Assembly (NCBI RefSeq): GCF_001190925.1
Contig: NZ_CP011072.1
Span: 1,240,001 to 1,304,000, forward strand
Direction of reading: 5' to 3'
DNA: 64,000 nt
Source of the DNA: Azoarcus sp. CIB
GTDB lineage: Bacteria > Pseudomonadota > Gammaproteobacteria > Burkholderiales > Rhodocyclaceae
The position numbers and the translations under genes were made by a program. The first letter of the stretch is position 1. The number at the start of each line of letters is the position of its first letter. Shown piece after piece: positions 26,279-50,789 of the stretch. Under the pieces are notes generated by a model. It ran no database searches, was not told the DNA's origin, and saw only the letters and a program-made list of their open reading frames with translations.

Positions 26279-26289
26279 GCGGGACGGCG

Positions 26290-29663: not shown

Positions 29664-32600
29664 ATGCTGCTAGTCCCGCGTACATGCGTGCGCCAATCCG
29701 ACGTCAAAGGTGAGACGATTGTAGAGCCAATGCCGCTGAGCGACACGCGAGACTTGACGGCATACGTGTTGCTCGGCGATCCCGGCTTGGGCAAGAGCGA
29801 GGCGTTCCGGCAGGAAGCCGATGCTGGCGGGGGCCATCGCATCAGCTCGGGCGATTTTTTGGCGCTGGATCATCCTGAACTGAAGGACTCGCCGCTACCC
29901 GTGTTCATCGACGGCCTTGACGAAACGCGGGCGGGCACAGTGGACGGCAGGGTTCCGCTGGACAACATCCGCAAGAAGCTGCAGCTGCTGGGATGCCGCA
30001 GCTTCCGCCTCTCGTGCCGCGCTGCCGACTGGCTGGGGAACCCGGACGCGACCAAGCTGCAGTCCCTACTACCCGCGAGCAAACAGGTCCAAGTTTTCAC
30101 CTTGCAGCCACTGACGTCGGCCGACGTCGCCGCCATCCTTCCGACTAACCACGGAATCACCGATCCGCAGGCCTTCATCAACTCGGCCGAACAACATGGA
30201 CTGACCGATCTTCTGTTCAACCCGCAGACCCTGGGCATGCTCGCTAAGGCGGTCGGTCCGGACAACCGCTGGCCGGAGACTCGACCGGCTGTTTACGAAA
30301 TGGCCTGCGAGCGGCTGGTGCAGGAGCACAACGAGGAGCACGTCGCCGCCACTCGCAAAACCGCGCCGGATCAAGGCGCGCTTCAACGGGCTGCCGCCTA
30401 CCTCTGTGCCATCCAACTGATCGCAGACCTCGCCGGCTTCACGCACCTGCCGAACCATCCGGACCGGGTGCTCAGACTGAACGCCGTGCCCAATCCCGAA
30501 GGACTGCCGCTGGACGAAGCATTGGCCAGCCGCCTGTTCAAGTCGATAGGGCGCGATGTGTTCACCGCTGTGCACCGGACCGTGGCCGAATTCCTTGCCG
30601 CCCGCTGCCTGGCCGATCGCCTCGACGGGAAGCTCACGCTACGGCGTGTGCTCGCGCTGATCTGCGGCTCAGACGGCGGGGTTGTCAGCAGCATGCGCGG
30701 CCTGGCCGGTTGGCTGGCATCAATGTCCCCCGCGGCGCGGATCCCTCTCGCCCGGCTCGATTCGCTTGGCGTCCTCCTGTACGGGGACGCGGAGGGTTTC
30801 TCGATCGCGGAAAAGTCGGCGTTGATGGAGCGGCTCGGCGGCGACATCGCGGTTTCAGCGTCGTTCCGCTGGTACGAATGGGGCGGCCGGCCGTTTGCGG
30901 CGTTGGTGACGCCGGAGATGGGTTCGGTGGTCAGCCAGAGGATGGCCGCCGCCGACCGCTCGGAGAACGGTCAACTCCTCGTGCTTGCCCTGCTCGAAGG
31001 ACTGCTCGACGCGCCACCGGACACCGGACTGACGCCTCTCCTGCTGTCCATGGTCCGGGATGCGTCCCGGTGGCCAGCCGTGCGCGGGCGGGCCTTGAAA
31101 ATCTATCGACGTTGGGTTGGCGTGAACGATCCTTCCCTGCGCACCTTGCTGGACGATATCGGCACCGGCGCGGTGACGGACAGCGACGACGAATTGCTTG
31201 GAGCACTGCTCAAGGCGATGTACCCGCGAGCGCTTCCGTCCGCTGATCTCCCAGCATTCCTTCATCCGCCGAAACGGGAAAACCTCATCGGCAATTACAC
31301 GATGTTCTGGCGGCGCGACCTGGATCGGATCGACGCCGCGGAGGCTCCAGGCTTGCTGGACGCGTTCGCCGCGCGTACAGACCTACGCAAAGGAGCCCGC
31401 CTGCGTGAGTACGCCAAGGCCGTCGGCAGCGTGCTGGCCCGCGTGCTGAAGGAAAGCGGTGACAAAACTCCCGACGATCGATTGCTGAACTGGCTTGACG
31501 CCACTTGCGGCAAGCACGCGGAGAGCTTGCTGGAAAACGATGACAAGCTGATGGTCCAGCAATGGTTGGAAGCACGCCCGAAGCGCTACTTCTCGCTTCT
31601 AGACCTCGCATTGACGCGGTACGCAAACAAGCAGAACCGAATTTGGCCAGCCGAGGCCCGGCTGCACGGGACCAAGGCGCCGGCGAACGAGGCCGCGTGG
31701 TGGCTTGCCAAGACCCAAGCGACCGACGATGAGGCGTGGGCAAAGGAGTACTTCGTCCAGGCTCTCCATGCCATCACCAACGAGTCCGGAACCGAACTCG
31801 AGGAATTGCTGGTCGCCTGCGAAAACCTCGCGGCGTCGCGCGGGTGGCAAGACTCGCTCGCCGGCAGGCTTACTTGCAGCTTCGACGATTGGCAGTGGAA
31901 ATTGGACGAAGCCGCACGCCGGCAGGAACATGAGCGCGAGGCCGCCGAACGGCGCGATTCTTATCGCGCACGGCTGGCCGATTTCTCACTGCCGCTGGCG
32001 CCGCTTGCCGTCCTGAGTCCCGTGGCCGAGGTGTACGCACACAGACACTACGACGTCGATGGCGAAACGCCGCAGGAAAGGCTGGCCAGCCTCTTCGCGG
32101 GCGACGAGGAATTGGTCCAGGCCGCGCTCGCGGCGCTGCGTAACACGATCGGTCGGGCGGACTTGCCGTCCGTGGAAGAAACTCTGGCCGCCATCGCCGA
32201 GGACAAGGTGATGGTGCTGAACGCGCCGGCGTTGATCAGCCTGGAGATGGCCTATCGTCAAGATCACGCGTTCCTCGACTCGCTCTCCGACGAGCGCCTC
32301 GTGGCCGCATTGGTTGCCCATTTGGTTCACTCGGTCGAAGGCCACGACACATGGGTGGCTGCGGCGGTCGCATCCCGACCGCAATGCATGGCCGACGCCT
32401 TGAGCGCCTACCTCACAGCCGCGATGCAATGGAAGACCCGCACCCCGCATGCCACGCACCTGTTCCGCGACCAAGCCTATGCTGAAGTCACGAGGAGGTG
32501 CTTGCTGCCGCTCCTCGCGCAGATCCCCTTGCGAGCGCGCCCCAACCTCCGCAGCGCACTCACGGATATGCTTCACGCCGCGCTGACGCTACCCGCGCGC

Positions 32601-33680
32601 GACGAGCTGCTTCCCCTCATTAAGGCCCGGGTCGACGCGCCGAAAGTTGACGGGCCGCAGCGCGCGTACTGGCTGGGCGCAGGCTTGCTCTTGGACCCGG
32701 ATCACTACCTTCTGCAGGCCAGCTGCTACTTGCAGCGCCGAGCGCCGGCCGTTCAGCACCTCGCCCGTTTCCTGCACTATCGCCGTGAGGTCGGCGGCGA
32801 CGGGATTCCGCGCCCGTCGAACGTGCTGGGTTTTCTGATCGAGCATTTCGCCGTCGGCTGCTCGCCTGCGCAGTTCGACGGCTCGGGCTGGGTGAGCCCC
32901 GAAATGAATCGGGCCGATCTCGTCAAGCGCTTCCTCAACGAATTGGCGGGCAGGCCGGATGCAGAGAGCGCCGAGCTGCTCAAGCGCCTCGCGAGACTTC
33001 CGGCGCTCGCCGAATGGGCATCAAAGCTGCGGGAGGCCCGAGCTGCCCAGCAGGTCGTGCGGCGCGATGCAACTTACGAGCGGCCCATGTGGCCGCAGGT
33101 TTGCACGGCCTTGCAGCAGGGGGCGCCCTCCAGCCCAGCAGAGATCGCCGCCGTCGTGAACGACACGATCGAAGACCTGAAGGAACAGGTTCGCCGTAGC
33201 GACCTTAACCTGAACCATCAATACTGGAACGCCGATTCGCACAAGAAGGCAACAACGCCTCGCCATGAAGAGCTTTGCCGCGACACGTTCGCTGACCAGT
33301 TGCGCGTCCGGCTGGAGCGATTCGAGATTGCCTGCTTGCCCGAGGCCTACCATGCCGACGGCAAGCGCTCCGACGTGTGGTGCACCACCGGCACCCTGGG
33401 TGGCGTGCCGATCGAGGTCAAACTCGATCGGCATCGCGAACTGTGGTCCGCCACACGTGGACAGCTGATAGCGCGCTATTCGACCGATCCCCGGGCTAAA
33501 GGGCGCGGAATTTACGTCGTTCTCTGGTTTGGCGACCCGAAGCAGGTTCCCCTGTCGCCCTCGGGCGTGCGAACCCAGACGCCCGACGAACTCCAGGCAA
33601 TGTTGGAGGCGGGCTTGTCGGAGGAAGAGAAGCGCTCCATCACGATCCACGTGCTCGATTGTTCGGTGCGAGGGAAGTAA
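29664..33680 (+). CDS. Large STAND (NACHT-like) NTPase with C-terminal PD-(D/E)XK nuclease-like domain
   Basis: 1338 aa. A short N-terminus precedes P-loop GDPGLGKS (residues 38-45) and Walker B VFIDGLDE (80-87), followed by SFRLSCRAADW, a NACHT-type sensor arginine region. A long helical middle (about 330-1180) looks HEAT/TPR-like. At the C-terminus, D1237-x13-E1251-V-K1253 within KRSDVWC and GVPIEVKLD matches the PD-(D/E)XK nuclease core, with following RGQLIARYSTDPRAKGRGIYVVLWF as in the family. The ATP-binding module is almost at the N-terminus and the nuclease at the far end, the reverse of Avs proteins. A role in anti-phage defence is inferred from the architecture and neighbours. Confidence 0.75.
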   Translation: MLLVPRTCVRQSDVKGETIVEPMPLSDTRDLTAYVLLGDPGLGKSEAFRQEADAGGGHRISSGDFLALDHPELKDSPLPVFIDGLDETRAGTVDGRVPLDNIRKKLQLLGCRSFRLSCRAADWLGNPDATKLQSLLPASKQVQVFTLQPLTSADVAAILPTNHGITDPQAFINSAEQHGLTDLLFNPQTLGMLAKAVGPDNRWPETRPAVYEMACERLVQEHNEEHVAATRKTAPDQGALQRAAAYLCAIQLIADLAGFTHLPNHPDRVLRLNAVPNPEGLPLDEALASRLFKSIGRDVFTAVHRTVAEFLAARCLADRLDGKLTLRRVLALICGSDGGVVSSMRGLAGWLASMSPAARIPLARLDSLGVLLYGDAEGFSIAEKSALMERLGGDIAVSASFRWYEWGGRPFAALVTPEMGSVVSQRMAAADRSENGQLLVLALLEGLLDAPPDTGLTPLLLSMVRDASRWPAVRGRALKIYRRWVGVNDPSLRTLLDDIGTGAVTDSDDELLGALLKAMYPRALPSADLPAFLHPPKRENLIGNYTMFWRRDLDRIDAAEAPGLLDAFAARTDLRKGARLREYAKAVGSVLARVLKESGDKTPDDRLLNWLDATCGKHAESLLENDDKLMVQQWLEARPKRYFSLLDLALTRYANKQNRIWPAEARLHGTKAPANEAAWWLAKTQATDDEAWAKEYFVQALHAITNESGTELEELLVACENLAASRGWQDSLAGRLTCSFDDWQWKLDEAARRQEHEREAAERRDSYRARLADFSLPLAPLAVLSPVAEVYAHRHYDVDGETPQERLASLFAGDEELVQAALAALRNTIGRADLPSVEETLAAIAEDKVMVLNAPALISLEMAYRQDHAFLDSLSDERLVAALVAHLVHSVEGHDTWVAAAVASRPQCMADALSAYLTAAMQWKTRTPHATHLFRDQAYAEVTRRCLLPLLAQIPLRARPNLRSALTDMLHAALTLPARDELLPLIKARVDAPKVDGPQRAYWLGAGLLLDPDHYLLQASCYLQRRAPAVQHLARFLHYRREVGGDGIPRPSNVLGFLIEHFAVGCSPAQFDGSGWVSPEMNRADLVKRFLNELAGRPDAESAELLKRLARLPALAEWASKLREARAAQQVVRRDATYERPMWPQVCTALQQGAPSSPAEIAAVVNDTIEDLKEQVRRSDLNLNHQYWNADSHKKATTPRHEELCRDTFADQLRVRLERFEIACLPEAYHADGKRSDVWCTTGTLGGVPIEVKLDRHRELWSATRGQLIARYSTDPRAKGRGIYVVLWFGDPKQVPLSPSGVRTQTPDELQAMLEAGLSEEEKRSITIHVLDCSVRGK

Positions 33681-34018
33681 GCCGCGGGCCTGTTGCTGGC
33701 GGTGGCGGCGAGAGCCTTCGTCGCAGCCAGACTAGGGGCCCGGGTCGAGGGCAAGAAAGCGTTCGGGCTAGGGCTGCTTCTCGCCGGGAGCACCGGGGCG
33801 ACCTGCATCTCCCAAGCGGTCGTAGCCGAAAGGCCAACGCGCCTTGACTGACTGCTTATCGGCCGACTGTCGAACTCCCGCTTGGGCACATTGCTATCTC
33901 GCATCTCGATTCCCCATACAGCTGAAGTTTCCAACTTCTTGCTGTACGTGAAATCGAGGCAGGGTCAGTTTGTTCACGCTCAGCGATACAGATGCCTGTC
34001 CATCGGCTTTTTTCCCAG
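33681..34018. other. Intergenic region in the accessory island
   Basis: 338 bp with no gene that I can support between two convergent genes. It contains short frames without recognisable features. No terminator hairpin with T-run was seen. Confidence 0.35.
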
Positions 34019-35413
34019 TTAGGACGGGATTCGCGTGGAGGCACGAAACGGCAACTGCGATGTCTCGCTTGCCGCAACGTCGCGATCGAAGTCCGCGCGC
34101 GTGTAATCGCGCGGGTAATAGGAGAAGCTCTTCAGGTCGAAATATGCATCTGCATCCATGTAGCGCCGAGACAATTCTAAACTTGCGGCCTCAGCCGACT
34201 TTGCGTCGAAATCATGGCTGAGGTGAATCATCGATATCCCGCTGTCGTTCGCGCTACTTGGGTCGACCGGCACGGCACCGCTCCTCGACCATTCACGCAA
34301 AAGAATGTCCGCAATTTTCGGCGGGCCATAGGCCACGACCGGGCCAACTGAAACTCCGGCGATCGAACCCTTGTGCTCATCGAGAAACGAACGCGTTTCG
34401 TCGAAAGTCCTGGTCGTTTCCCCGGCATAAAGCAAGACATTTACCTTGGCGGCGATGTCGTGATCGCCGCATGCCCTAAGCAAAGTGGACGCTCGCTCTA
34501 GGTAGCGATCCGGATCGCGCGATTTGCGCATGTTTAGGATTTGCGTCGGCGACGCCGTTTCGAGCCCGAGATCGAGCACCTTCATGCCTGCCTTGGCGAG
34601 ACAGGCGATCGTTTCAGGCGTGAGCGCATCGACGCGGCTTTCCGTCCGCCACGGGACATCGAGGCCGACGGCCCGCACCGCATTCGCTAGGCCGGTGCCC
34701 CAATTCTCATTGGGGGCGAACATCGATGATTGGAAATAGGGCCGGATCTCGCTGCCGCCATACTGGCTAGCAACCGTCGCAAGCGCGCTGGCAATCTGCT
34801 CCGGCGCCCGCAGCTTCCCAAGCCGGATATCCCGCTCCTCGCAGAAGGCGCAGCCCATGCCGCACCCGCGCGATGCCTCAATGCTTGGTTGATAGCGCTC
34901 AAAACCCGATACCAGAGGGTGGTTCAGGACGGAGTCTGGTGTCGGCGCAGGCAGGCGGCGCAAGTCCGGCGCGCTCGTGAGCAGGCTTTCTATAACCGGT
35001 TCTGCCAACCCTGGGACGAGCAGGTTCGCCTCGGGCAGTTTCGCGTGCAACCAGCCAGGATCCGGCCCAACCACCCAACGACCACCAACAATGATCCTGG
35101 CGTCCGGATCAACGCCGCGCACTAGCCGGCAAAAGGTCTGCGCCCACGGGAGGGCGTAGAAGCTTGGGATCGATAGCATCACCGGCAATCGAGACGGAAA
35201 CACGCCTTTGTCGAGCAGCATGCTCAGCACGTCGGCGGGTTCGTCGTGCTCGCCATGCACCAGCAGGGTCTCGATTCCCATGGCATCTAGGATCGTTGCC
35301 AGCGACAATGCGCCGTAGTTGAGATAGAGCTGCCGACGCGCAAGCATATGATCGCGCCTCTTGGGCGACAACATACCGGCGGATACGAATGCAACTGTAT
35401 TCGAGCGCTTCAT
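34019..35413 (-). CDS. Radical SAM protein with cobalamin-binding-like N-terminal domain
   Basis: About 464 aa from MKRSNTVAFVSAG. Residues 1-170 resemble a B12-binding Rossmann-like domain (YLNYGALSLATILDAMGIETLLVHG, DPDARIIVGGRWV). The radical SAM core starts with SIEASRGCGMGCAFCEERD, a canonical C-x3-C-x2-C cluster motif, followed by TESRVDALTPETIACLAKAGMKVLDLGLETAS. This is the layout of class B methylases and related cobalamin radical enzymes. The substrate is unknown. It is divergent, by 43 bp, from a thymidylate-kinase-like gene, suggesting linked function on nucleotides. Confidence 0.8.
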   Translation of the reverse strand: MKRSNTVAFVSAGMLSPKRRDHMLARRQLYLNYGALSLATILDAMGIETLLVHGEHDEPADVLSMLLDKGVFPSRLPVMLSIPSFYALPWAQTFCRLVRGVDPDARIIVGGRWVVGPDPGWLHAKLPEANLLVPGLAEPVIESLLTSAPDLRRLPAPTPDSVLNHPLVSGFERYQPSIEASRGCGMGCAFCEERDIRLGKLRAPEQIASALATVASQYGGSEIRPYFQSSMFAPNENWGTGLANAVRAVGLDVPWRTESRVDALTPETIACLAKAGMKVLDLGLETASPTQILNMRKSRDPDRYLERASTLLRACGDHDIAAKVNVLLYAGETTRTFDETRSFLDEHKGSIAGVSVGPVVAYGPPKIADILLREWSRSGAVPVDPSSANDSGISMIHLSHDFDAKSAEAASLELSRRYMDADAYFDLKSFSYYPRDYTRADFDRDVAASETSQLPFRASTRIPS

Positions 35414-35456
35414 TGAAATATCATTGTTTGTTTGAGTTGGACCGGAAAGGGTACAC

Positions 35457-36068
35457 GTGCCATTTGTAAGTATCGAGGGCATCGATGGTAGCGGGAAGAC
35501 CGTGCAGGTTAGGCTGCTTGTTGAACGCCTTAGAAGTACCGGCCTGACGGTGCTACAGACAAAGGAACCGGATGGGGGGCAATTGGGTGCGGAGGTGCGG
35601 GCGATCCTGACGCGCCCCGACCGCCGACTCGCCCCGGCAGAGCAGCTCCTGCTGGTAAGCGCTGCTCGATTTGATCATGTGCGCAGCGTTATTCGGCCGG
35701 CATTGACGAACGGCCATTGGGTCGTCTCCGATCGCTTCATCGATTCGACTTACGCGTTTCAGGTCGCGGTGTCCGACGTCGATCTCCACCAGATGTTCCG
35801 GGCGACCCGCGACATCGTCGTGGGGCCCACACTCCCGGACCTGACGATCATCCTCGACCTTCCGCTTGAGGTGGCTCGTGGCCGGAGGGGACTGCGCCGC
35901 GACGGCGTTCTCGACCCGGCGGAAGCGACTCGGGACTTTGCCGCCATCCGCGAAGGTCTGCTCGCGGTGGCATGCGAGGACCCCCGACGCTGCCATGTCG
36001 TCGACGCGAACCAGACGCCGGGCGCGGTGGCACACGATATCTGGTGCATCATCGAACGCTTGCTATGA
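35457..36068 (+). CDS. Thymidylate kinase-like nucleotide kinase
   Basis: 203 aa beginning with GTG after a GGAAAGG site. P-loop EGIDGSGKT (residues 7-15), the Tmk motif TKEPDGGQLG and DRFIDSTYAFQ, with a shortened lid region (ARGRRGLRRDG). The family phosphorylates dTMP. The housekeeping tmk normally lies with holB, so this is probably a second, specialised copy. It is divergent from the radical SAM gene and 66 bp upstream of a STAND NTPase gene. Confidence 0.85.
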   Translation: MPFVSIEGIDGSGKTVQVRLLVERLRSTGLTVLQTKEPDGGQLGAEVRAILTRPDRRLAPAEQLLLVSAARFDHVRSVIRPALTNGHWVVSDRFIDSTYAFQVAVSDVDLHQMFRATRDIVVGPTLPDLTIILDLPLEVARGRRGLRRDGVLDPAEATRDFAAIREGLLAVACEDPRRCHVVDANQTPGAVAHDIWCIIERLL

Positions 36069-36134
36069 CGCGCCGCTGCGAGTCGGCGAACGGACATCGC
36101 CAATCACCACCGATATGAAACCCGGAGCCTCTTC

Positions 36135-38867
36135 ATGAACCCGCAGACCCGCAGTCTGCTCATCCAGCGCGTGATCGACGCGCTCGCGATTATGGCGCCG
36201 GGTTCGATCTTCGAACGGTTCGGGGTCGTGCTTGTCGAGCGGCTGTGCGATGTGAGACTTGTGCAGCGAGGGTCGTCGGTCGGCGGCAGTCCGGTCGGCG
36301 GCGCGCTAGATGCGGTGTCGGAAGATGGTCGTGTCGTCGTCGAGGCTTCAATCGTGAAGGGATATTTCTCCGGTGCGATGGCCAAGCCGTGGGGCGATCT
36401 CGATCACACCCTGACCTTGGCGCCACGCGCCCAAGACATCTATCTACTGAGTTCCCAACGCGCGGAAACCGGCGTAATCGAAGCGATGGTCAACACGGCC
36501 TTGGAGCAGGATCGGATGGCCGGGCGACGCCTCCACCTGATGGACAGTCGCGCTATCGCCGAGGCCATCGTTGACGCGCTGATACTTCGTGACGACGCAA
36601 TCGACGACCTGGCCCGGCATCTGCCCGTCCTGGCCGAGATCCGCGATGACCACCCCGTGTCATTGAACGCGCCGCCGCTGAGCGCGCTCTATGTTAAGAA
36701 TGAGGCGGTTGACGCCGAACTGCACCGGCGGCTCGAGACCAATGCTTGTGTCGAGATCGGCGGAATTGGCGGCATCGGCAAGTCTCAGGCGGCAGCCGCG
36801 TGTCTGCTGAGCAGCGAGGACCGCTTTCATTACAGGTTCTGGGTAAGCGGTCGAGACATCGACAGCGTCGAGCGGCTCTCGTCAGTACCGGTCCGGCGCG
36901 GCGGTGCCGAGCGCAATGTCAGCGCTCTGCTGCGCAGAAACCGCACGTTTCTGGTCGTGGACGACGCCAGTCCCAGCCTGGCGGTCGACCGGCTTGCCAA
37001 TTTGTGCGGGCCGGATTCGCGGATCCTGATCACTCGGCAGAACCCCTCATCCGGGGCCTTCGCCATGCCTACGATGGACGCCCAGCAGGCCCGCACATTG
37101 CTCGGCAGAGGTCTCGATACGCAGCCGCCCAGAATGGCGTTCCAAACGATCTGGCGCGCCGTTGGAGGGCATCCGCTGAGCTTGGCAATGCTGAATGCCG
37201 CCGCGCGCGAGGGCGTATCGTGGAACGACCTCGCTGAGGACTGCGCCAATGTTGCGAAACTGCCGGTTGATGGCGTCCGGCTCGCTGACCGTATTCTTGG
37301 ACGGCTGAAACCGGCGCTCGAGGATGAACTGTGTCTGTTTCAGTGGGCGGGCCAGAGCCACTGTGATCGCGCCTTCTTCAAGCATGTCGTCGGCTTGCTG
37401 CGTTTGAGGGCTTTCGAACAACATGGCCTGACTGCGCCTGAAGGCGCTGCGTCGATTCGTATCCACGATATCGTCTTCACCGCACTGAGATCGCTGAACT
37501 GGCTGACAACTAAGAAGGCGGACGAGATTGACGGTCATCTTGAAGCATTCATTCTTCAGCAAATCCGCGAGGACGGGCATGGCCTGCATCTGATCGCCTC
37601 TCAGCTGAGGGGAAAGATCGCCAGCAACGTCGCGAATGGCGATCGTCGTCCGGCCTTCCTTTACGCCCTGGCGATGACCTGGATGGGCAGCGCCATTCCG
37701 GTGCATCTGCTGCCAAACCCGCTAGAAGAGGCACAGCGGCTCAAATCGCTGAGCGCGACTGAAAACGAGGTGGCCATCCTAGTCGTCCTCGAGTCAATCG
37801 AAGCAAAGGGGCGCTATCTCCGGCAAGCGTCAAGGGACAAGGCTGCAGTCACATGGCTAGAAACGGTCGTGCCTGCCTATGACGACCTCGCGGCCATGGC
37901 TGACCTCAGTGCCCGGCAGGCTGCCGAGATCAAGCATCACCGTGCAAAGACACTCCGCATCTTGGGAAAACATGCCGAAGCCGAGCGCTTGTTCGAGGAG
38001 GTGGTCGCCAGCTATCCGCTGAATGATGCCAAGCTTCAGCTGGTGCGATCTGTCGGTGGCAAGCCGCAAGGTTACGACACGGCAAAGCGATATGCGTCAG
38101 AGATCATCACCGCAAAGCTGGACAACGGCAGCGTGTCTCCCTCACTGCTGATGGCATTGGGCGATGCGCTCAATGGCGCACGTCAGACCTGGGCGGGCGA
38201 CCTTATCGAACAGCATGAGGAGCTGTTTCTGTCGGAAGCGCTGTACAGCGCCGCCATCGGGATACCGCAAGGCTATCATTCGGTCGCGAGCTTCGTCCGC
38301 GCGCTGGTCTGGCATGCACCGGAGCGGGTCGAGAGCGTGCTGGCGCGCCTGCCCGACCCAACGCCGTGGATGCTGGACGATGACCAGAGCCGCGGCGGTT
38401 ACGCGGAGATCATGCTGCTCGCAGCGGGCGTCGGGGACGAATCCGTTTACCTGAACCGCGCTCTCGAAGCTTACGAGACACTGAAAACGCCGGACCACTA
38501 CCAGAAGCGCAAATGGGGCGAGGCGCTCTACAAGCTCGGCCGCTATGCAGAGGCAGAGGCCATCCTCCAGACGATCGAAGACAAAGGCGGCCGGATCTGG
38601 TTGGCTCATAATCTGTCGCAGGTGAAACTCCAGCTGGGCAAGTTCGAGGAAGCTCTTGATCTCGTTAACGAGTCCGTCGCGGGGGCGACCGGCGTTAACG
38701 AGAAATATCGCAGCAGCTTCCTTCTGCAGCGCGTCAAGGTGAAGGTCGCGCTACACCAGGATCCAGCCGACGATATCGCCGAGGGCCTCCGGTACACAAT
38801 CAACCCCGGCCTTCTCGATCAGTTTTCCGCGTTCTGGCCTGGTGTCGTCGCGATATCAACGCGCTGA
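36135..38867 (+). CDS. NB-ARC-type STAND NTPase with TPR repeats and degenerate nuclease-like N-terminus
   Basis: 910 aa. The N-terminal domain (1-170) has a Mrr-like pattern: F26-E27, then D59 and E70 in GALDAVSEDGRVVVEAS, but Ser72 stands where the catalytic Lys would be. P-loop GGIGGIGKS (209-217) and Walker B FLVVDD (272-277) mark an NB-ARC/AP-ATPase module. The C-terminal half is built of TPR-like helices (for example LGKHAEAERLFEEVVASYP and LGRYAEAEAILQTI). The architecture of effector, STAND and sensor repeats resembles anti-phage Avs or plant-NLR-like proteins. Effector activity unproven. Confidence 0.75.
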   Translation: MNPQTRSLLIQRVIDALAIMAPGSIFERFGVVLVERLCDVRLVQRGSSVGGSPVGGALDAVSEDGRVVVEASIVKGYFSGAMAKPWGDLDHTLTLAPRAQDIYLLSSQRAETGVIEAMVNTALEQDRMAGRRLHLMDSRAIAEAIVDALILRDDAIDDLARHLPVLAEIRDDHPVSLNAPPLSALYVKNEAVDAELHRRLETNACVEIGGIGGIGKSQAAAACLLSSEDRFHYRFWVSGRDIDSVERLSSVPVRRGGAERNVSALLRRNRTFLVVDDASPSLAVDRLANLCGPDSRILITRQNPSSGAFAMPTMDAQQARTLLGRGLDTQPPRMAFQTIWRAVGGHPLSLAMLNAAAREGVSWNDLAEDCANVAKLPVDGVRLADRILGRLKPALEDELCLFQWAGQSHCDRAFFKHVVGLLRLRAFEQHGLTAPEGAASIRIHDIVFTALRSLNWLTTKKADEIDGHLEAFILQQIREDGHGLHLIASQLRGKIASNVANGDRRPAFLYALAMTWMGSAIPVHLLPNPLEEAQRLKSLSATENEVAILVVLESIEAKGRYLRQASRDKAAVTWLETVVPAYDDLAAMADLSARQAAEIKHHRAKTLRILGKHAEAERLFEEVVASYPLNDAKLQLVRSVGGKPQGYDTAKRYASEIITAKLDNGSVSPSLLMALGDALNGARQTWAGDLIEQHEELFLSEALYSAAIGIPQGYHSVASFVRALVWHAPERVESVLARLPDPTPWMLDDDQSRGGYAEIMLLAAGVGDESVYLNRALEAYETLKTPDHYQKRKWGEALYKLGRYAEAEAILQTIEDKGGRIWLAHNLSQVKLQLGKFEEALDLVNESVAGATGVNEKYRSSFLLQRVKVKVALHQDPADDIAEGLRYTINPGLLDQFSAFWPGVVAISTR

Positions 38868-39126
38868 ATTCTGCCGTTCCACGGTCAATGAGGGGTAAGC
38901 CATCAGGCGTGAAGGCCTCGATGCCCAACCAAAAGCTGCTGCCTGCCATCGCGATTTTTTTGAGGGAGGCGCGTCGTATGTCGTCTTTCGCTACTTGGAC
39001 TAAACCGCTCGCGCGGTAGGGCGTGCTGAACCGCTTCGAACAGTCAGGACGTCGTGGGTGTGCATCGGCAGTGCTCTGCCATGTTGGAGATGAGGCGATC
39101 CGCCTCGTTTTCGACAGGAGCACGTC

Positions 39127-40002
39127 ATGGAAACGACTATCCGCCCCATCAGCCCACTGCGCCAGCGCATGATCGAGGACATGCGGATGCGCAAGCTGGG
39201 CGACAGAACCCAGGAAGGGTACGTGCGCGCCGTGCGCTACTTCACGAAGTATCTTGGGCGCGCTCCGGATACCGCGACCGTCGAGGATCTGCGGAACTAC
39301 CAGCTGTACCTCGTTGATCACGGGACGTCGCCCACGTCGCTCAACGCGGCAATTTCTGGCTTGAAGTTCTTCTTCACCGTCACGCTCGACCGTCCCGAGC
39401 TGATGGCCAAGATGCAGCCGGTGCATCTGCCGCGCACGTTGCCGGTGATCCTGAGCCCGGACGAGGTGAAGCGCCTGATCGCTGCGGCGGGCAACCTGAA
39501 ACACCAAACCGCCCTGGCTCTGGCCTATGCCACGGGCCTACGCATCAGCGAAGTGGTGTCCCTGAAGGTGAGCGACATCGACAGCCAGCGCATGACCCTG
39601 CGGGTTGAACAAGGCAAGGGCCAGAAGGATCGTTATGCGATGCTGTCGCCGTTGCTGCTGGAACGGCTGCGCGTGTGGTGGCGGGTGGCCCGCGCGCAGG
39701 GCAAGATGCTCGATGGCGGCTGGCTGTTCCCGGGTCAGGATCCGGTCCGGCACCTCAGCGCCCGGCAACTCGACCGTGCCATCCACGCCGCTGCCGACGA
39801 AGCCGGCATCGGGAAGCGGGTATCGATGCACTCGCTGCGCCATGCCTTTGCCACGCACCTGCTGGAGCAGAAGGTCGACATCCGCCTGATCCAGGTCCTG
39901 CTCGGGCACAAGAAGCTCGAAACAACCGCCCTGTACGCCCAGGTCGCCACCGACATCCTGCGCGAGGTCGTCAGCCCGTTGGAGAAGCTGAACTCCCCGT
40001 AG
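39127..40002 (+). CDS. Tyrosine-type site-specific recombinase of the IS91-family element
   Basis: 291 aa XerC/D-like. N-terminal SAM-like core-binding domain (TQEGYVRAVRYFTKYLGRAPD), then catalytic residues: Arg in ATGLRISEVVSL, His/Arg in HSLRHAFATHLLE, His in LGHKKLETT and the nucleophile Tyr in ALYAQV. It lies immediately upstream of the IS91 transposase, an arrangement known for part of that family. Confidence 0.9.
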   Translation: METTIRPISPLRQRMIEDMRMRKLGDRTQEGYVRAVRYFTKYLGRAPDTATVEDLRNYQLYLVDHGTSPTSLNAAISGLKFFFTVTLDRPELMAKMQPVHLPRTLPVILSPDEVKRLIAAAGNLKHQTALALAYATGLRISEVVSLKVSDIDSQRMTLRVEQGKGQKDRYAMLSPLLLERLRVWWRVARAQGKMLDGGWLFPGQDPVRHLSARQLDRAIHAAADEAGIGKRVSMHSLRHAFATHLLEQKVDIRLIQVLLGHKKLETTALYAQVATDILREVVSPLEKLNSP

Positions 40003-40009
40003 CGCCGCC

Positions 40010-41176
40010 ATGGGGCGGCCTGCCCTGGAGGTCGCCGACATCTTCCGCACCCATGGCCCCGCGTGGCGAGCACAGCAGTCGGGCCACCTGAGCCTCGGTC
40101 AGCTCAAGGTCATGTCGGCCATCGAACAGTGCCGTACCGCGGCGCTGGGCGGACACGCATTGCGTTGCAATGGCTGCGGGCATGAGGAGATCAGCTACAA
40201 CTCCTGCCGCAACCGGCACTGCCCGAAGTGCCAGGCGCGTGCCGCCCAGCGCTGGCTCGAGGCCCGACAAGCCGATCTGCTGCCGGTCGAGTATTACCAC
40301 GTCGTCTTCACGCTGCCCGAACCGATCAGCGCCATCGCCTACACCAACAAGGCGGTGCTCTACCGGCTGCTGTTCGACATGGCGGCGGAAACGCTGACGA
40401 CCATCGCCGCCGATCCGAAACACCTCGGCGCCCAGATCGGCGCCACTCTGGTCCTGCACACCTGGGGTTCGGCATTGACGCATCATCCCCACGTGCATGG
40501 CATCGTCCCCGGCGGTGGAATTTCTGCAGACGGGAAGCGCTGGGTCGCTTGCCGGCGCGGGTTCTTCCTGCCGGTGCGCGTGCTGTCGCGCTTGTTCCGT
40601 CGGCGCTTCATCGAGGAACTCGAGAAGCGGTATCGCGCCGGCCAGCTGCAATTCTTCGGCGAGCACGCGCCCCTGGCCGATGCCGGCGCGTTCGGCCGGT
40701 GGTTGGTGCCGCTGCGCAGGTGCGAGTGGGTGGTGTATGCCAAGCGTCCGTTCGCCGGTCCCGAGGCCGTATTGGCCTACCTCTCCCGCTACACCCACCG
40801 GGTGGCCATCTCGAACCGGCGATTGGTGGCGATGAATGACAGTGACGTGTCCTTCCGCTGGAAGGACTACCGGGCCAAGGGGCGTACCCGCCACAAGACG
40901 ATGACGCTCGCCGCCGACGAGTTCATGCGGCGCTTCCTGCTGCATGTGTTGCCAACGGGCTTCCACCGCATCCGTCACTACGGACTGCTGGCCAATGCCG
41001 GGCGACAGCAGAATCTCGCCACGGCGCGTGCCTTGCTCGATGTGCCTCGACCCGAACCGGTCGACAACGAAAGCGCCGTCACGCCACCGCCGACCTTCGT
41101 CTGTCGCTGCTGCGGCGGCGCCATGCTTGTCGTCGAGATCATGATGCGTCGACAGCCGATTCGCGCACCGCCATGA
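40010..41176 (+). CDS. tnpA: IS91-family transposase (HUH rolling-circle)
   Basis: 388 aa. N-terminal zinc-binding region (LRCNGCGHEEISYNSCRNRHCPKCQ), HUH motif in THHPHVHGIVPGG and the YLSRYTHRVAISNRRL block with candidate catalytic Tyr. A C-terminal Cys pair (FVCRCCGGAM) is also typical. It nicks and transfers one strand of the element. Confidence 0.93.
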   Translation: MGRPALEVADIFRTHGPAWRAQQSGHLSLGQLKVMSAIEQCRTAALGGHALRCNGCGHEEISYNSCRNRHCPKCQARAAQRWLEARQADLLPVEYYHVVFTLPEPISAIAYTNKAVLYRLLFDMAAETLTTIAADPKHLGAQIGATLVLHTWGSALTHHPHVHGIVPGGGISADGKRWVACRRGFFLPVRVLSRLFRRRFIEELEKRYRAGQLQFFGEHAPLADAGAFGRWLVPLRRCEWVVYAKRPFAGPEAVLAYLSRYTHRVAISNRRLVAMNDSDVSFRWKDYRAKGRTRHKTMTLAADEFMRRFLLHVLPTGFHRIRHYGLLANAGRQQNLATARALLDVPRPEPVDNESAVTPPPTFVCRCCGGAMLVVEIMMRRQPIRAPP

Positions 41177-41490
41177 TGCACCGCCTGCAGTTCTCTCGTC
41201 ACACGACAGCATCGGCACCCGAGTTCCCGGCGCCGAGAGCGGCCGGCTGTTGCTCGATGCCGTATCGCCAGCATTCGCCGCCTCAGGCACGTGTCATCGT
41301 GGCGCCAATGACCGCCGTCGGTGTCGATCTGTGCGTTGCCGATGGTTCGATGCGCCAATCATCGGTCATCTTGGGAACACCGCCTGGCGTCAAATCCCCA
41401 TAGGCCGCGTCCTACCCGAACCGCGCACCAGCATTCCGCGGTTTCGTCCCTGGAGGTTTATTCAACGTCTGCCCGCAGGCGCTCTCGCGT

Positions 41491-41756
41491 CATCCAGCCT
41501 CGTCACGTGAAGGGCAGACGTCAAACAAACCTAAACCTTTGCTGCCGCTCGGACAAGTCCCGAGTTACGTCAGCAATGCGGCCGATTACTGACGGCGAGA
41601 GTATCGGGCGCCATCGCTACTGCCATCCGCATAGCGAATTTCAGCCCAGTTAGCCACTGGCGTACCGAGCATGGCGAACGTACTTTACGCGTCGCGGGGT
41701 CTATCAAACATCAGTAAACTAGGCGATGACAAAACAATGATGACTTAGGAGGGGAA
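41491..41756. promoter_or_regulatory. Region upstream of the giant STAND gene
   Basis: No gene between the IS91 element and 41757. The last 60 bp is AT-richer and should hold the promoter; AGGAGGGG lies directly before the start codon. No repeat or operator recognised. Confidence 0.4.
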
Positions 41757-44700
41757 ATGGCTTCAAGGAAGTCCGCTGCGACTGCGACCAATCCACAACT
41801 GGACTTGCTCAAGTCCGAACTCGAGACCCACGACGACTCTGTCTTCGAGCACTTGTCGGCGCATCTGATAAGTCGACTCCTCGGTGATGTAGCGATCACG
41901 GTCTCTAAGAGCGGACACCAAGTAGGCGCCGATGCCGGCACGGCCGGCTTGCGCGGGCGTCGACTGCGCATCGAATGCAAGCGCTACCAAGAATCGACCG
42001 GACTGCGCTCCCGCGACTTGGCGGGCGAGGTTGCGGAGGCGGCAGATGACGACGAACTCTTGGAAGCCTGGATTCTCATGGCCACGAAAAAGGTCAAGGA
42101 GAACGAGCGCAGACTAGCCTGGAGGCAGGGGCAAAAAAACGGAATCGCGGTCATCGTCATTGATTGGACTCCACCGGCAAGTGGCGCTGGCATCTGCTCT
42201 TTAGCAGCTTTGTGTGCAACTTGGCCAGAAGTGGTCGAGCAGCACCTCAGTAAGACGGCGGCGGACGCGGCTCGAGCGCTTGCGCCGCTCGTTGGGCCGG
42301 CCGTCGACAACCTGCGCAAGGACATCGAGGTCTGGAACATTGGCTACAAGAGCCTGCGTGAGTCCTCGCACAAACATTTGAAGTCGATCTGGGAAAGTCG
42401 CAGGCAATCCCGCGCTTATCTGGGGCAGGACGCCGCAGGAGGAGAGGCGGGAGTTCACCTCATTTCGCGCAAGGGACCGCTCAAGGAACTTACATCCTGG
42501 TGGAACGCCCCGAGCAAGCTTGAGGCGCCCGTGGCTGTCACGGGCCTAGAAGGTGTCGGAAAGACATGGGCGGCACTGGACTGGGCTCGCCAAAGCTGTG
42601 ACGATCTGCCTATCGTCCTGGTGGTTCCCTCTGGTGCTTTCGCAAAGAACTACGATGTCTCGGTTGGTGGCATCCAGGAACTCCTCGCCAATACCCTCAA
42701 AGAGCACACCAACTCGACCCTGACGGACAGGTACTGGCGCACGCGCGTGACGCGTTTGCTTACAAGCCCCGTCACAGAGGGGCCGACCTTCTTCCTTTTC
42801 CTGGACGGGTTGAATCAGCACCCGCACACGAACTGGACGGGCTTGGCGCAGACGTTGCAGGCGGACGTCCTGCTGGGACGCGTGCGACTCCTGATGACCT
42901 GCAGGCAAAGCTACTTCGAGCAGGACCTGAGGCGGCTCTCTCAAATCGACCCCCGGCCGGTCGAGATCCCAGCGCATGTGTACGACGACGCCGAATTTGA
43001 AGAGGTTCTACGCCTGCATGCGATGAGCAAGGAGCAACTGCACGAGTCACTTCGCCAACTGGCGCGCACACCGCGGCTGTTTCCACTTGTGTACCGGCTT
43101 AAGGACAACGACGCGCTGAAGTCGGACGCCACAGTGCACCGCCTCCTCTTTGAGTATGGGCGAGACGTTCTGGAGCAGCGCGAGCGCAGCGCCTTCACAC
43201 CAGACGATTGGGCCCAGTGGCTCGCAGACAGGGCAAGACACCACCGGGAACGCATCAAAGACACCGGTGTGCTGGCAAAGCCCGAGCCGGTGAAGGAACT
43301 CGAGAGCAGCCTGGCCTCGCCGGCATTGACGCCCGAAGGTGTTCAACGCCGTCTGAGCGAGCTCGTCGACGGACATCTGTTCGAGAAGAGGAAGGTCGGA
43401 GCCACGACTCAAGTGCTCCTGCGCAATGAGGCAGCGGTGCTTGGCTTGGCCTTGGCCCTACTCGAGACGCTGGACAACAGGGGCGACGACTTCGATGCTC
43501 AGCACGCAGCACTCGAGGAGTGGGTCGAGCCGGTTAGCGCCATCGACCAGACCACCGAGGTGCTGCGAGCGGCGCTGTCCGTGATTTCGGCTGGCGCTGG
43601 GTCCGACGGAGAGGTCAAGACCGATTGCCTTCTGGTGACTTGGATGAACGCCCAGAACCCGGGCCGAACCTACGAGCAAGACGCTGCCGTATTCGGCGAC
43701 GCGCTGCCTCGCTCCATGCTCGCGGTTGTCGAGCGCTCATCAAGCCAGGCTCGTGGGGCGGCTCGCCAGTTGGCGATTCGGAGTCTTCGAATGCTGCCAA
43801 GGACACGCGCTGAGGATTGGCAGTTCATCGAGCGGCGGCTTGTCCATTGGGCTGGATGGTTCTACGTCCCGCGCCCAGACAAGATTGCTGACACAACACA
43901 CTTCGCCCAGAGGGATCACGATCAAATCGTTGAGCGTATCGGGACGGCCCAACCAGGAGAAAAGCTTGTCCTTGGAGTGCGGCTGCAGCTCGACTACCAG
44001 CATCTGGGCGACCCTGCATCAGCCATTCCGGGAATTCTGGAAGGGCACGACCTGACTCAGTTCCCAGAGATTTTCCGCACGGCGGCGGTGCGGGAGGCAG
44101 CCCAAGTCGGTGGGTTCGGCAAGATCTGGGCGGGCTTTCACTGGTTGGCGTCGATTGCAAGCGCCGACGAGCAAAAGACAAGAGAGTTTCTCTGGCGACT
44201 TGCCGATGCGATGCTTGCCACCCGGGCCGAACCTGGTGTGCATTCACGGCTTTGCAACCGCGCGGCCGCTTTGCTGCTGCGAGTTGGCGGAGAAGAGAGC
44301 ATGGAGAAGCGAGCGTCGGAGGTCGACGAGACTTTCGGCGCGGCCTGGAAATACGAAGACGACTACGAGAAGGACCCCGCCCACTCCTTCATCGAGCCGG
44401 AACGGCGGCATCTCGAAGCCATCTTGGCGACCGAGGACCTTCCCGTATGGAGGCGGCTGGAGAAGGTCAACGATTTCCTATCTGACCCTACGGTCAGCAT
44501 GCCCGAAGACATTCTCAGAGCGCTCGCCTTGTCGCTCGATGCACAGACGTTCGAGGGAGTTCGTCAGGGCATGCACCACACCAGCGAGGACCATCAGTGG
44601 GAGAAGCTGCAGCCTGTCGCAGCCAGGTTTCTGCCAGAAAAGTTCTCCGAGGCGTCACGCCGTCACTTGCAGGCGCTTGCTGCCCGGCGGGGAGAGCAGA

Positions 44701-46472
44701 AATACTGGTCCGCGTTGCACCTGGCGGAGCTGCTGCTTCTGGTTGCGCCTGAGGACATGCCAACGCTTGCGGGCCTGCGCACCGGCACCAAGCTTGAGAG
44801 CTACGAGGAGATTGCCAATACCTTCTGCCTGCAGCTTGAAATCCTACATATGCCCGTGGAGCAACAGCTCGAACACCTGCTCAACGCGGGCGAGTATCGT
44901 GCGACGCTTGACCTCCAGGAGGTCTTGCGACCAGCAAGCGCTGAGCATTTGGGCAAGTTCCTCGAGAAGCACCAGCCGTCGCCTAGGGCGGAGCGCATCG
45001 TCCTTGAAGTGATGGCGCAGCAGCAAACGAAGGATGCCGCGGCGCTGGCCGAGAAGTTGCTGCACACGCTCGACAGCGAGGATGAGGAGCTCAGGAACAT
45101 CAGCTTTATGGCGCTCTCACTGTGCGCCCCGGAGGTGTGTGGACAGCGCCTGCTCTCCAAGAACTGGAAGGCCGATGCAGCGGATGCCTTTGCTTCGCAC
45201 TATGGCAGCGATGCAGTCGCGCGTGCTTCCAAGACCTTCAGCTTTGAAGACGTGCAGGCGCTCATCGCGCCGTGGCGCTGGCTGGATACAGCTGTGTCGC
45301 GTGGTAGTCAGCCCCTGGAGCTGCAATCCGTATCCGTCTCTCTCGTCCGGCTGGTGTTGAGCGCTGCTGGTGAAATCGCTGAGCCGCCAGGTGAACTCTC
45401 CATGCGTAGTCCGGAAATGGGGGGGCTGCCCAGCATCGGCATCAGAGAGTCAAAGCACCAGGAGACTTCGGAGCGCGAATTCTTTCGCGCGATGGGCGAG
45501 AGTGCAGAGGCAGCCAACCGCCGGATGGAGGAACTCTCCAAGGCAGCGGCTGCTAGCATCCGAAAGATTCGCGCGAGCGGCTACAGCTTCTACTTGCAGT
45601 CGTTCGAAGTCTCTGCAGTAAGAGCGGCGTACAACTGCGCGCCGGCAGAGTGGAATAAGCTGTTGGATGGGGGGCAAGACAAAACATCGGATTTTGTGAA
45701 GCGCGTACGTTCAGCCGAGGGGCTATACATGGCCCTTTGCGAGGTGATGCTGGAGGTTGCTCCTGCTCAAGGTGCAGTACTGTGGGAGGCCTTGGCTAGC
45801 GTCGTGCGAACCAAGATGAAGGGAACCGCCGGAATCTCGGAGTTCATTCACATGGTGTTCAGGGCGCCAGATTCGCCTGAGGTCGAGAAGCTGCGGGAGT
45901 CCCTCACCGCGTTCGCTCTGACCAGCACGGACTTGGCAATCCTGGACACTGTCATCGCTGCCCAGGTCAATAGCTGCGATGGTTGGCTCGACAAGCTCAT
46001 CCAGCAGGATCAGGCGTCTGCGTACCAGTGGCGGCGAAAGCGCGGGCTGATGCTTGATGCTTTGCGTTCTTACCCGGACCCTCAGACGTTGGACTGGCCG
46101 TTCGGACTAAAGGTGACCTCCATCGAGTCGCTCGCGAGTCGCATGGCCAAGTGGCACAACAGAGGAGCTTTGGCCCGCATGTGGTGGTCCAGGTTCATAC
46201 AGGCGGTCGACGCTCCCAGCGCTTTTGCTGCGTGGAAGGTGTTCCTGACTTGCGCCGATCGGCGCGCCTACGTGTGGATGAAGAAGGAAGCGGAGAGCGC
46301 GTTCAAGGATTCGGAGCTGGACCGTCTTCGCAAACTGCACGTTCGGATGAACTGCAGTCAGCTTGAGAGAAACCTCTCCGCGCGTGAGGAGAAGACTAAC
46401 GGCCTAAACAACCATCTCTTCGGACGAGAGGCACCGGCGCATTGGCTTGAGATGGACGCCATTGCCAGTTGA
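41757..46472 (+). CDS. Giant Avs-like STAND NTPase with N-terminal PD-(D/E)XK nuclease
   Basis: 1571 aa. N-terminal nuclease-like domain: E31, then D59-x13-E73-C-K75 (GADAGTAGLR, RIECKRYQES), a complete PD-(D/E)XK core as in Mrr/Cap4-type effectors. P-loop GLEGVGKT (263-270) and Walker B FFLFLDGLN (about 345-353, Asp350) follow. The long C-terminal part (about 500-1571) is helical and repeat-like. An effector-STAND-sensor order and this size are typical of Avs anti-phage sensors. The start is backed by AGGAGGGG. The stop codon directly abuts a decayed IS3-type end, so the last residues may be altered. Base composition is lower in GC than the core genes. Confidence 0.75.
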   Translation: MASRKSAATATNPQLDLLKSELETHDDSVFEHLSAHLISRLLGDVAITVSKSGHQVGADAGTAGLRGRRLRIECKRYQESTGLRSRDLAGEVAEAADDDELLEAWILMATKKVKENERRLAWRQGQKNGIAVIVIDWTPPASGAGICSLAALCATWPEVVEQHLSKTAADAARALAPLVGPAVDNLRKDIEVWNIGYKSLRESSHKHLKSIWESRRQSRAYLGQDAAGGEAGVHLISRKGPLKELTSWWNAPSKLEAPVAVTGLEGVGKTWAALDWARQSCDDLPIVLVVPSGAFAKNYDVSVGGIQELLANTLKEHTNSTLTDRYWRTRVTRLLTSPVTEGPTFFLFLDGLNQHPHTNWTGLAQTLQADVLLGRVRLLMTCRQSYFEQDLRRLSQIDPRPVEIPAHVYDDAEFEEVLRLHAMSKEQLHESLRQLARTPRLFPLVYRLKDNDALKSDATVHRLLFEYGRDVLEQRERSAFTPDDWAQWLADRARHHRERIKDTGVLAKPEPVKELESSLASPALTPEGVQRRLSELVDGHLFEKRKVGATTQVLLRNEAAVLGLALALLETLDNRGDDFDAQHAALEEWVEPVSAIDQTTEVLRAALSVISAGAGSDGEVKTDCLLVTWMNAQNPGRTYEQDAAVFGDALPRSMLAVVERSSSQARGAARQLAIRSLRMLPRTRAEDWQFIERRLVHWAGWFYVPRPDKIADTTHFAQRDHDQIVERIGTAQPGEKLVLGVRLQLDYQHLGDPASAIPGILEGHDLTQFPEIFRTAAVREAAQVGGFGKIWAGFHWLASIASADEQKTREFLWRLADAMLATRAEPGVHSRLCNRAAALLLRVGGEESMEKRASEVDETFGAAWKYEDDYEKDPAHSFIEPERRHLEAILATEDLPVWRRLEKVNDFLSDPTVSMPEDILRALALSLDAQTFEGVRQGMHHTSEDHQWEKLQPVAARFLPEKFSEASRRHLQALAARRGEQKYWSALHLAELLLLVAPEDMPTLAGLRTGTKLESYEEIANTFCLQLEILHMPVEQQLEHLLNAGEYRATLDLQEVLRPASAEHLGKFLEKHQPSPRAERIVLEVMAQQQTKDAAALAEKLLHTLDSEDEELRNISFMALSLCAPEVCGQRLLSKNWKADAADAFASHYGSDAVARASKTFSFEDVQALIAPWRWLDTAVSRGSQPLELQSVSVSLVRLVLSAAGEIAEPPGELSMRSPEMGGLPSIGIRESKHQETSEREFFRAMGESAEAANRRMEELSKAAAASIRKIRASGYSFYLQSFEVSAVRAAYNCAPAEWNKLLDGGQDKTSDFVKRVRSAEGLYMALCEVMLEVAPAQGAVLWEALASVVRTKMKGTAGISEFIHMVFRAPDSPEVEKLRESLTAFALTSTDLAILDTVIAAQVNSCDGWLDKLIQQDQASAYQWRRKRGLMLDALRSYPDPQTLDWPFGLKVTSIESLASRMAKWHNRGALARMWWSRFIQAVDAPSAFAAWKVFLTCADRRAYVWMKKEAESAFKDSELDRLRKLHVRMNCSQLERNLSAREEKTNGLNNHLFGREAPAHWLEMDAIAS

Positions 46473-46660: not shown

Positions 46661-46963
46661 ATGGAGGTGTTGATGGAAACGAAGAAGGCGCAGCAGCGCT
46701 TCACCGAAGAGTTCAAGATCGAAGCGGTCAAGCAGGTAACCGAGCGGGGGCATGCGGTTGCCGAAGTGGCGGTACGGCTCGGCGTGAGCGCCCATAGCCT
46801 TTACACCTGGATCAAGCGCTATTCCGTTCCCGCGGAGCAGCGCGCCCAGCACGACGGCCAAGCCGACGAGATCCGGCGCCTGAAGGCCGAGCTGCGGCGC
46901 GTGACCGAGGAGCGCGACATCCTAAAAAAGGCCGCCGCGTACTTTGCCAAGCAGTCCGGGTGA
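46661..46963 (+). CDS. IS3-family transposase OrfA
   Basis: 100 aa with HTH (EFKIEAVKQVTERGHAVAEVAVRLGVSAHSLYTWIKRY) and a C-terminal leucine-zipper-like segment (EIRRLKAELRRVTEERDILKKAAAYFAK). A slippery heptamer A-AAA-AAG (46923-46929), in the zero frame CTA AAA AAG, allows -1 frameshifting into orfB, whose frame is open across the site. An internal ATG at 46673 is an alternative start. Confidence 0.92.
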   Translation: MEVLMETKKAQQRFTEEFKIEAVKQVTERGHAVAEVAVRLGVSAHSLYTWIKRYSVPAEQRAQHDGQADEIRRLKAELRRVTEERDILKKAAAYFAKQSG

Positions 46964-47835: not shown

Positions 47836-47897
47836 AAAACCCGGGTCGATTCAGCCAGTGCGTTTTTCGCCCAGGCGGAGCTCGACCGCCGATTCAA

Positions 47898-50767: not shown

Positions 50768-50789
50768 TTCCACCCACCGGAGAACATCG

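Follow-up and report, generated by a model that had tools for sequence, protein, structure and literature searches.

A mobile radical-SAM, kinase and STAND gene module in a defence island of Azoarcus sp. CIB, tentatively read as a maker of a nucleotide analogue against phages

To our knowledge, among radical-SAM enzymes only viperin is established as a producer of an antiviral nucleotide in intracellular immunity, and in vertebrates SAMHD1 goes with viperin and the nucleotide kinase CMPK2. Other radical-SAM enzymes are AprD4, an antibiotic-biosynthesis enzyme with an aminoglycoside substrate, and OxsB, whose substrates are dAMP, dADP and dATP, and among defence proteins the Avs-type STAND proteins are sensors of phage proteins. 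Here, a stretch of 64,000 nucleotides of Azoarcus sp. CIB (NZ_CP011072.1, assembly GCF_001190925.1), referred to as the window and used for all positions, is analysed. Its region 34019-38867 carries genes for a radical-SAM enzyme (P0006), a thymidylate-kinase-like protein (P0003) and a STAND protein (P0004; Table 1), which we tentatively read as a mobile three-gene antiphage module that makes a nucleotide analogue and includes a STAND sensor. While a defence role of this module is likely, its nucleotide chemistry is proposed by analogy with the systems above and is put forward with considerable reserve.

All three genes, arranged as in the window, were detected by tblastn on plasmids of Burkholderia glumae, Sphingomonas aerolata and Pseudomonas sp. 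XWY-1, with 79-86% identity to the window for the radical-SAM enzyme and P0004 and 74-76% for the kinase. A scan of genome contigs from 84,980 species, each represented by a single genome, returned at least 72 radical-SAM loci, of which at least 23 (L010-L032) were kept; the 49 dropped loci (L033-L081) are weaker hits on the radical-SAM core, most of them short. Together with the window and five plasmid loci these make up a family set of 29 loci (window, L005-L032), in which L004, the same locus as L022, and a second B. glumae plasmid carrying the module (NZ_CP100241) are not counted. The tree of the 29 radical-SAM loci contains a 14-member clade (window, L005-L008, L010-L018; support 100/99) spanning alpha-, beta- and gammaproteobacteria, plasmids included. 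Throughout this clade the kinase gene adjoins the radical-SAM gene in divergent orientation (14 of 14, L016 read by eye), with a gap of 39-47 bp in 13 members (L018, whose starts are unclear, is unscored). After the kinase gene, P0004 is present in 10 of the 14 and missing from L008, L015 and L018, and in L011 the contig ends before the site; its association with the pair is not permanent. The genes are co-inherited, as pairwise distances of the radical-SAM enzyme correlate with those of the kinase (r 0.91, 0 of 2000 permutations) and of P0004 (r 0.79, 2 of 2000 permutations). The 80-91% identity of P0006 to its relatives in L005, L006, L007, L010 and L011, which stem from three proteobacterial classes and are in part plasmid-borne, points to recent transfer. 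P0006 is rare, being found in two of 274 genomes of the class at E 1e-15 and in one of 398 of the phylum at 1e-30, its own genome included in both counts, and neither the radical-SAM nor the P0004 alignment found a relative in the viral contigs scanned. No description of the three-gene module was found in the open-licence literature; the available parts of PMC10853773 and PMC10250203 contain nothing on it, the latter reporting a radical-SAM gene, not compared with P0006, which flanks a Pseudomonas aeruginosa defence hotspot. Frameshifts are present in the radical-SAM genes of L025 and L029 (Pseudoalteromonas rhizosphaerae and a Parabeggiatoa assembly) as sequenced.

P0006 is built of an N-terminal Rossmann, B12-domain-like part, to which the B12-binding family PF02310 matches weakly (E 0.032, below the cut-off), and a radical-SAM barrel with the motif CxxxCxxC at residues 184-191, whose cysteines C184, C188 and C191 are invariant in the 19 aligned family members (the other 10 of the 29 lie outside the alignment). 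Its start is more likely M24 of the frame, at 35413, which leaves no overlap with the kinase gene. The predicted structure (predicted local distance difference test, pLDDT, 93) is matched about equally by AprD4, OxsB and MgmA. The nearest of them by structural Z and the best sequence match in the PDB is the radical-SAM diol dehydratase AprD4, for which we know of no kinase or STAND partner. The two-domain core is also that of OxsB (OxsB/OxsA, oxetanocin A) and AlsB (albucidin) by structure, at 14-16% identity, and in the predicted model the Rossmann part and the barrel adopt the OxsB arrangement. P0006 is, however, shorter than OxsB (464 versus 727 amino acids) and does not have its N-terminal domain: the match starts at OxsB residue 117, and about 115 residues preceding the matching part have no counterpart.

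With viperin (RSAD2) and CMPK2, and with the prokaryotic viperins, the module has in common the pairing, in an antiviral context, of a radical-SAM enzyme with an adjoining nucleotide kinase, the vertebrate pair (PMC12889620) forming a parallel to the module. Viperin shares CxxxCxxC with P0006, but aligns only to about residues 171-431 and is without the extra N-terminal Rossmann part, and its name is absent among the 18 NCBIfam matches of P0006. The pairing of radical SAM (A) and kinase (B) is already on the list of defence candidates as PADLOC candidate PDC-M51, of which no test was found in the open-licence literature. The match of P0006 to PDC-M51A is marginal (15.9 bits, E 0.001, over residues 116-221, 106 residues only), Desulfobacteraceae and Nostoc relatives of P0006 scoring 27-31 bits, and the window kinase matches PDC-M51B with 40.3 bits (6.4e-11) as opposed to 134.9 bits with the generic dTMP kinase model TIGR00041 (cut-off 83.25). 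The pair and P0004 would be a variant within nucleotide-analogue defence, for which a distinct chemistry has a fair chance.

The kinase P0003, which also matches PF02223 Thymidylate_kin (1.1e-39), shares 38% identity with the Tmk of the host, the frame of which is open elsewhere in the genome (G000:C1:3167716-3168297). Compared across 14 island kinases and ten Tmk-family proteins above the family cut-off (L106 aligned in part), P0003 departs from the Tmk family at two conserved motifs. EPGGT has become EPDGG in 13 of the 14 island kinases, the window included, L018 keeping EPGGT, and the glycine is present in all ten Tmk-family proteins; the aromatic residue of FAAR, aromatic in nine of these ten, is a serine in 12 island kinases (SAAR in the window), an asparagine in L014 and a phenylalanine in L018. 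In the Tmk of Mycobacterium (PMC3619541), the thymine ring has Phe70 stacked upon it and is held by Arg74; judged from the sequences, the phenylalanine of FAAR may be the equivalent of Phe70, an unsure assignment with the spacing to the arginine off by one. A third motif, YQG, reads FQV or LQV in 13 island kinases (FQV in the window) and YQF in L018, a change that is not diagnostic because the host Tmk itself reads YQV.

In the core of P0004, what we take to be Walker A (residues 212-217), Walker B (273-278), GxP (GGHPLSL, 344-350) and MHD-like (IHD, 443-445) motifs can be read, with core residues invariant in seven of seven aligned sequences, and the tail matches TPR_12 (3.6e-10). The nuclease-like head, which the original prediction had not claimed, has D59, E70, S72 and K84 invariant in the seven (two of them nearly identical) and in two homologues of 31-33% identity, which are encoded on plasmids and stand without the radical-SAM/kinase pair; it reads E70-x-S72 and not ExK, with K84 downstream. 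The order of elements in the head fits the alpha-beta-beta-beta-alpha-beta fold of PD-(D/E)XK nucleases, but the predicted model is uneven there (10-residue means 51-90), too weak to establish a nuclease fold, and modest as a whole (pLDDT 71.6; predicted template modelling score 0.47). The best folds in Foldseek are the STAND-TPR protein 6mfv (3.9e-7), Avs3 (5.2e-6) and Avs4 (5.6e-6); a second fold comparison, mainly of the TPR part, listed TPR matches only. With STAND-TPR proteins, Avs3 and Avs4, P0004 shares the succession of nuclease-like head, STAND core and repeat tail, yet neither an Avs family in PADLOC or NCBIfam nor any other PADLOC family matched up to E 1. A Pseudomonas frederiksbergensis plasmid carries a decayed copy of P0004 (L085, 6001-6746), in three pieces and about 84% identical, with IS66 genes nearby.

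The neighbourhoods of eight module loci were scanned with PADLOC (78 neighbours, 18 of them singly; best 25 of 184 matching families considered), L017 being left out as its flanks are nearly identical to those of L010. Known defence genes of five different systems occur within 10 kb in five of the eight loci, namely Lamassu (LmuA, LmuB) in L010, Gabija (GajA, GajB) in L014, Hachiman (HamA, HamB) in L016, KwaB in L012 and SspC in L018; among the proteins scanned singly, the three of L013 gave a PRTase_III-A match only (1.5e-16) and the five of L015 no defence match, and no protein of L011 was scanned in this way. In the window, the defence neighbours of the module are the two STAND proteins P0001 and P0005. 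The control, 78 of 184 neighbours drawn at random around 12 of the 49 dropped radical-SAM loci, comes mostly from other phyla and is imperfect; its best 25 families include a type I restriction set, PDC-S11, mad5 and four mad2, and it matched 115 PADLOC families versus 184 in the module set, fewer but not none, which makes the enrichment of defence genes around the module suggestive. Outside the clade, a radical-SAM relative of 45% identity in Pseudomonas sp. A-1 (L019, 7620-14619) stands between type I restriction R (1215 bits) and S-like (133 bits, cut-off 662) genes, and the relative on a Nostoc plasmid (L009) has a DrmMI/type IIG-like methylase on one side and a DruE-like helicase on the other. 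With this methylase and helicase, the radical-SAM and P-loop kinase-like pair of L009 may form a mixed system of its own.

That the substrate of P0006 would be a nucleotide is argued from the kinase and from HD and dCTPase-like partners. In both Nostoc loci (L009, L032) the place of the kinase is taken by another P-loop kinase-like protein that matches part of the PADLOC dCTPase model (2e-11), and in L030 a thymidylate-kinase-like gene lies two genes from the radical-SAM gene. An HD enzyme is encoded directly beside the radical-SAM gene in six of the 29 family loci: dGTPase-like in L014 (7e-63 to PADLOC dGTPase), L008 (94% identical to that of L014) and, in an overlapping frame, L027; SAMHD1-like in L015 (1.8e-44 to PDB 2o6i, about 1e-17 to SAMHD1) and L016; and related to that of L015 in L025, 34 bp upstream of the frameshifted radical-SAM gene. 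These neighbours take four places in the tree and belong to two HD families, the order of the two places within the clade being unresolved by the tree. OxsB has an HD phosphohydrolase as partner as well, OxsA, but the HD neighbours recurring here are SAMHD1- or dGTPase-like, and in the window no HD gene stands beside the radical-SAM gene. By annotation, the Rhizobium plasmid locus L008 (12187-15930) contains, besides the pair and the dGTPase, a 7-cyano-7-deazaguanine synthase in a set recalling Qat, and in the B. glumae plasmid locus L005 (2539-5674) two TcmP (three-Cys-motif partner) genes and one Gp37/Gp68-family gene lie beside the module.

In the mechanism that we propose, P0006, with its AprD4/OxsB-like build, probably remodels a nucleotide, the kinase with its altered motifs probably phosphorylates the product towards the di- and triphosphate, and the nucleoside-diphosphate kinase of the host would complete the triphosphate of the analogue. 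A chain-terminating or otherwise toxic (deoxy)nucleoside triphosphate ((d)NTP) analogue would stop phage polymerases, and in some relatives the SAMHD1-/dGTPase-like enzyme could reduce the pool of dNTPs that compete with the analogue or clear the analogue itself. P0004 would gate this pathway as the likely sensor of infection and, as a second effector, would cut DNA. Stated in full, the proposal is a bacterial module of chemical immunity: a radical-SAM enzyme of the AprD4/OxsB class would act with a re-tuned thymidylate kinase to produce an antiviral analogue of a (deoxy)nucleotide, a STAND sensor-nuclease would be linked to the two, and some lineages would add a SAMHD1-/dGTPase-like enzyme. 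In this form it is doubtful enough to be treated as a working hypothesis. Two observations weigh against it and have slightly lowered our confidence: one of the three motif changes of the kinase, that of YQG, is not diagnostic, and 10 of the 15 distant family loci have, with the queries used, neither a kinase nor an HD neighbour.

That P0004 adjoins the pair in 10 of 14 loci, and that its distances correlate with those of the radical-SAM enzyme, would also suit a signalling system reminiscent of CBASS or Thoeris, in which the pair makes a modified-nucleotide second messenger and P0004, which might bind a ligand through its STAND core and TPR tail, is the receptor triggered to cut DNA. We consider this unlikely, as three of the 14 pairs do without P0004, the homologues of 31-33% identity occur without the pair, and STAND defence proteins of such build sense phage proteins. 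It is also rather unlikely that the pair is a passenger, a small unit of secondary metabolism or nucleoside salvage riding in defence islands: five different known defence systems within 10 kb of five of eight scanned loci and the distant relative amid type I restriction genes in L019 argue for more than chance company, although the affiliation of AprD4 to antibiotic biosynthesis, the rarity of the radical-SAM enzyme and the partnerless distant loci are what a passenger would show. Improbable, given the joint occurrence of the pair and P0004 in 10 of 14 loci, is a set of three independent single-gene sensor-nucleases with a pair unrelated to P0004, even if P0001 resembles EruA (see below), P0004 homologues stand alone and P0005 homologues occur without the radical-SAM/kinase pair. 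A known route to modified DNA in phages is to modify a dNMP and then phosphorylate it with a kinase dedicated to it, and the pair might by the same route provide a modified dNTP that marks the host DNA, with the nuclease-like head of P0004 cutting unmodified DNA; the ExS in place of ExK in this head and the existence of pairs without P0004 make this most improbable. That the island kinase is no more than a source of dTMP kinase activity, a role played in Pseudomonas putida KT2440 by a dNMP kinase encoded in an island (PMC10653934), would agree with a score above the TIGR00041 cut-off, but was set aside as next to negligible because the host tmk frame is open, the changed motifs of P0003 arguing in the same direction. 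PP_3363 of that work is unlikely to be of the same family, as judged by identity figures only (22% to Tmk versus about 38% here).

The nucleotide-analogue module lies in an island, in the order P0001, radical-SAM gene, kinase gene, P0004, an IS91 element (IS, insertion sequence) and P0005, and the reading of the stretch as a bacterial antiviral-defence island is supported. P0001 aligns end to end (residues 15-1334 on positions 10-1318 of 1318) with the NCBIfam model of the 'NACHT domain-containing antiphage protein EruA' (NF058535; 901.3 bits, E 1.5e-270), yet this whole-length homology stays below the curated equivalog cut-off of 1000; neither Pfam nor PADLOC gave a match for P0001 up to E 1. 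An antiphage protein named EruA was not found in the open-licence literature, the sole EruA among the matches listed being an E. coli regulator. For P0005, Pfam, NCBIfam and PADLOC yielded nothing below E 0.01, the only matches being to two AAA families and weak (0.015, 0.073), and no Avs family match appeared in PADLOC or NCBIfam up to E 1; by alignment it nevertheless has the same order of nuclease-like head, STAND core and tail as Avs3/Avs4 and STAND-TPR proteins. Homologues were found in four of 398 phylum genomes at E 1e-20, its own counted, and no relative in the viral contigs scanned. Four homologues of 27-34% identity (one on a plasmid, three in genomes) have the same Mrr-like head, Walker A and length; D59 and E73 of the head are invariant in the five aligned sequences and the lysine two residues after E73 is an arginine in one of them. 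Two of the four homologue loci lie near another STAND gene; one homologue has a weakly Avs4-like protein nearby (115 bits, cut-off 1500), and in L094 (15671-18979) a HyoA-like antiphage NACHT protein, cut by the edge of the stretch, reaches 679 bits versus 1200. From their sequences, P0001 and P0005 are taken as new members of a known STAND kind, ordinary for it, which would act as separate, self-contained sensor-nuclease systems.

The original prediction, made on the sequence of the window, had seen three large P-loop proteins within 17 kb, and their frames are where it placed them, each with a Walker A motif (GDPGLGKS in P0001, GIGGIGKS in P0004, GLEGVGKT in P0005). The PD-(D/E)XK-type residues it had noted in two of them are present as D...ExK in the C-terminus of P0001 (RSDVW...IEVK, by eye) and the N-terminus of P0005, the radical-SAM, thymidylate-kinase-like and IS91 genes bear their family matches, and its view of a defence island is borne out by the EruA-like P0001, by the STAND genes near P0005 homologues and by the Gabija, Hachiman, Lamassu, Kiwa and Ssp genes near relatives of the module. 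Its suggestion that the three STAND proteins are new systems mostly did not hold, P0001 falling into a named family, P0005 being of a known kind and P0004 belonging to the three-gene module, and the radical-SAM and kinase genes, thought to be merely interleaved, are members of that module. Of the insertion between ars and arx loci, the left side stands, with an ars operon at 25018-29197 (ArsA and ACR3 above cut-off, ArsC at 70 bits below it, ArsR by eye); on the right, the molybdoenzyme at 55003-58362 is only ArrA/ArxA-like (429 bits versus the ArrA model cut-off of 1600), the border before it being rich in IS3 and IS21 elements. The G+C content is 0.60-0.63 across most of 33-48 kb as compared with 0.67-0.70 at 23-28 kb on the left side.

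Table 1. Features of the island, with positions in the window.
Feature	Position	Strand	Remarks
P0001, NACHT/STAND protein, 1338 amino acids (aa)	29664-33680	+	NCBIfam NF058535 EruA match
P0006, radical-SAM enzyme, 464 aa, module gene 1	34019-35413	-	PF04055 1.3e-8
Divergent gap of radical-SAM and kinase genes	35414-35456		43 bp
P0003, thymidylate-kinase-like P-loop kinase, 203 aa, module gene 2	35457-36068	+	GTG start; TIGR00041
P0004, STAND protein, 910 aa, module gene 3	36135-38867	+	nuclease-like N-terminus, NB-ARC-type STAND core, C-terminal TPRs
IS91-type element	39127-41176	+	within the island, between the three-gene module and P0005
Tyrosine recombinase of IS91-type element	39127-40002	+	NCBIfam XerA-like, 194 bits, cut-off 220
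IS91 transposase	40010-41176	+	NCBIfam NF033538, 439 bits
P0005, 1571 aa	41757-46472	+	nuclease-like, Mrr-like domain at the N-terminus, then STAND NTPase and a long C-terminal part
Right-edge IS elements	46661-51524	+	IS3, second IS3-like frame, IS21 IstA/IstB
IS3	46661-47835	+	358 bits
Second IS3-like frame	to 48809	+	identified by eye from open reading frames
IS21 IstA/IstB	49085-51524	+	IS21 296 bits; IstB by eye

If the three-gene module does make an antiviral nucleotide analogue, it would add a second, structurally different class of radical-SAM enzymes to intracellular immunity, implying that cells have hit upon this solution repeatedly. The module would then be a bacterial counterpart, independent in origin, to the viperin-CMPK2-SAMHD1 set of vertebrates. 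With its three genes in 5 kb and clear catalytic residues, the module is compact and the proposal directly testable, and it would provide a pointer to new antiviral nucleotides which may act as natural chain terminators.
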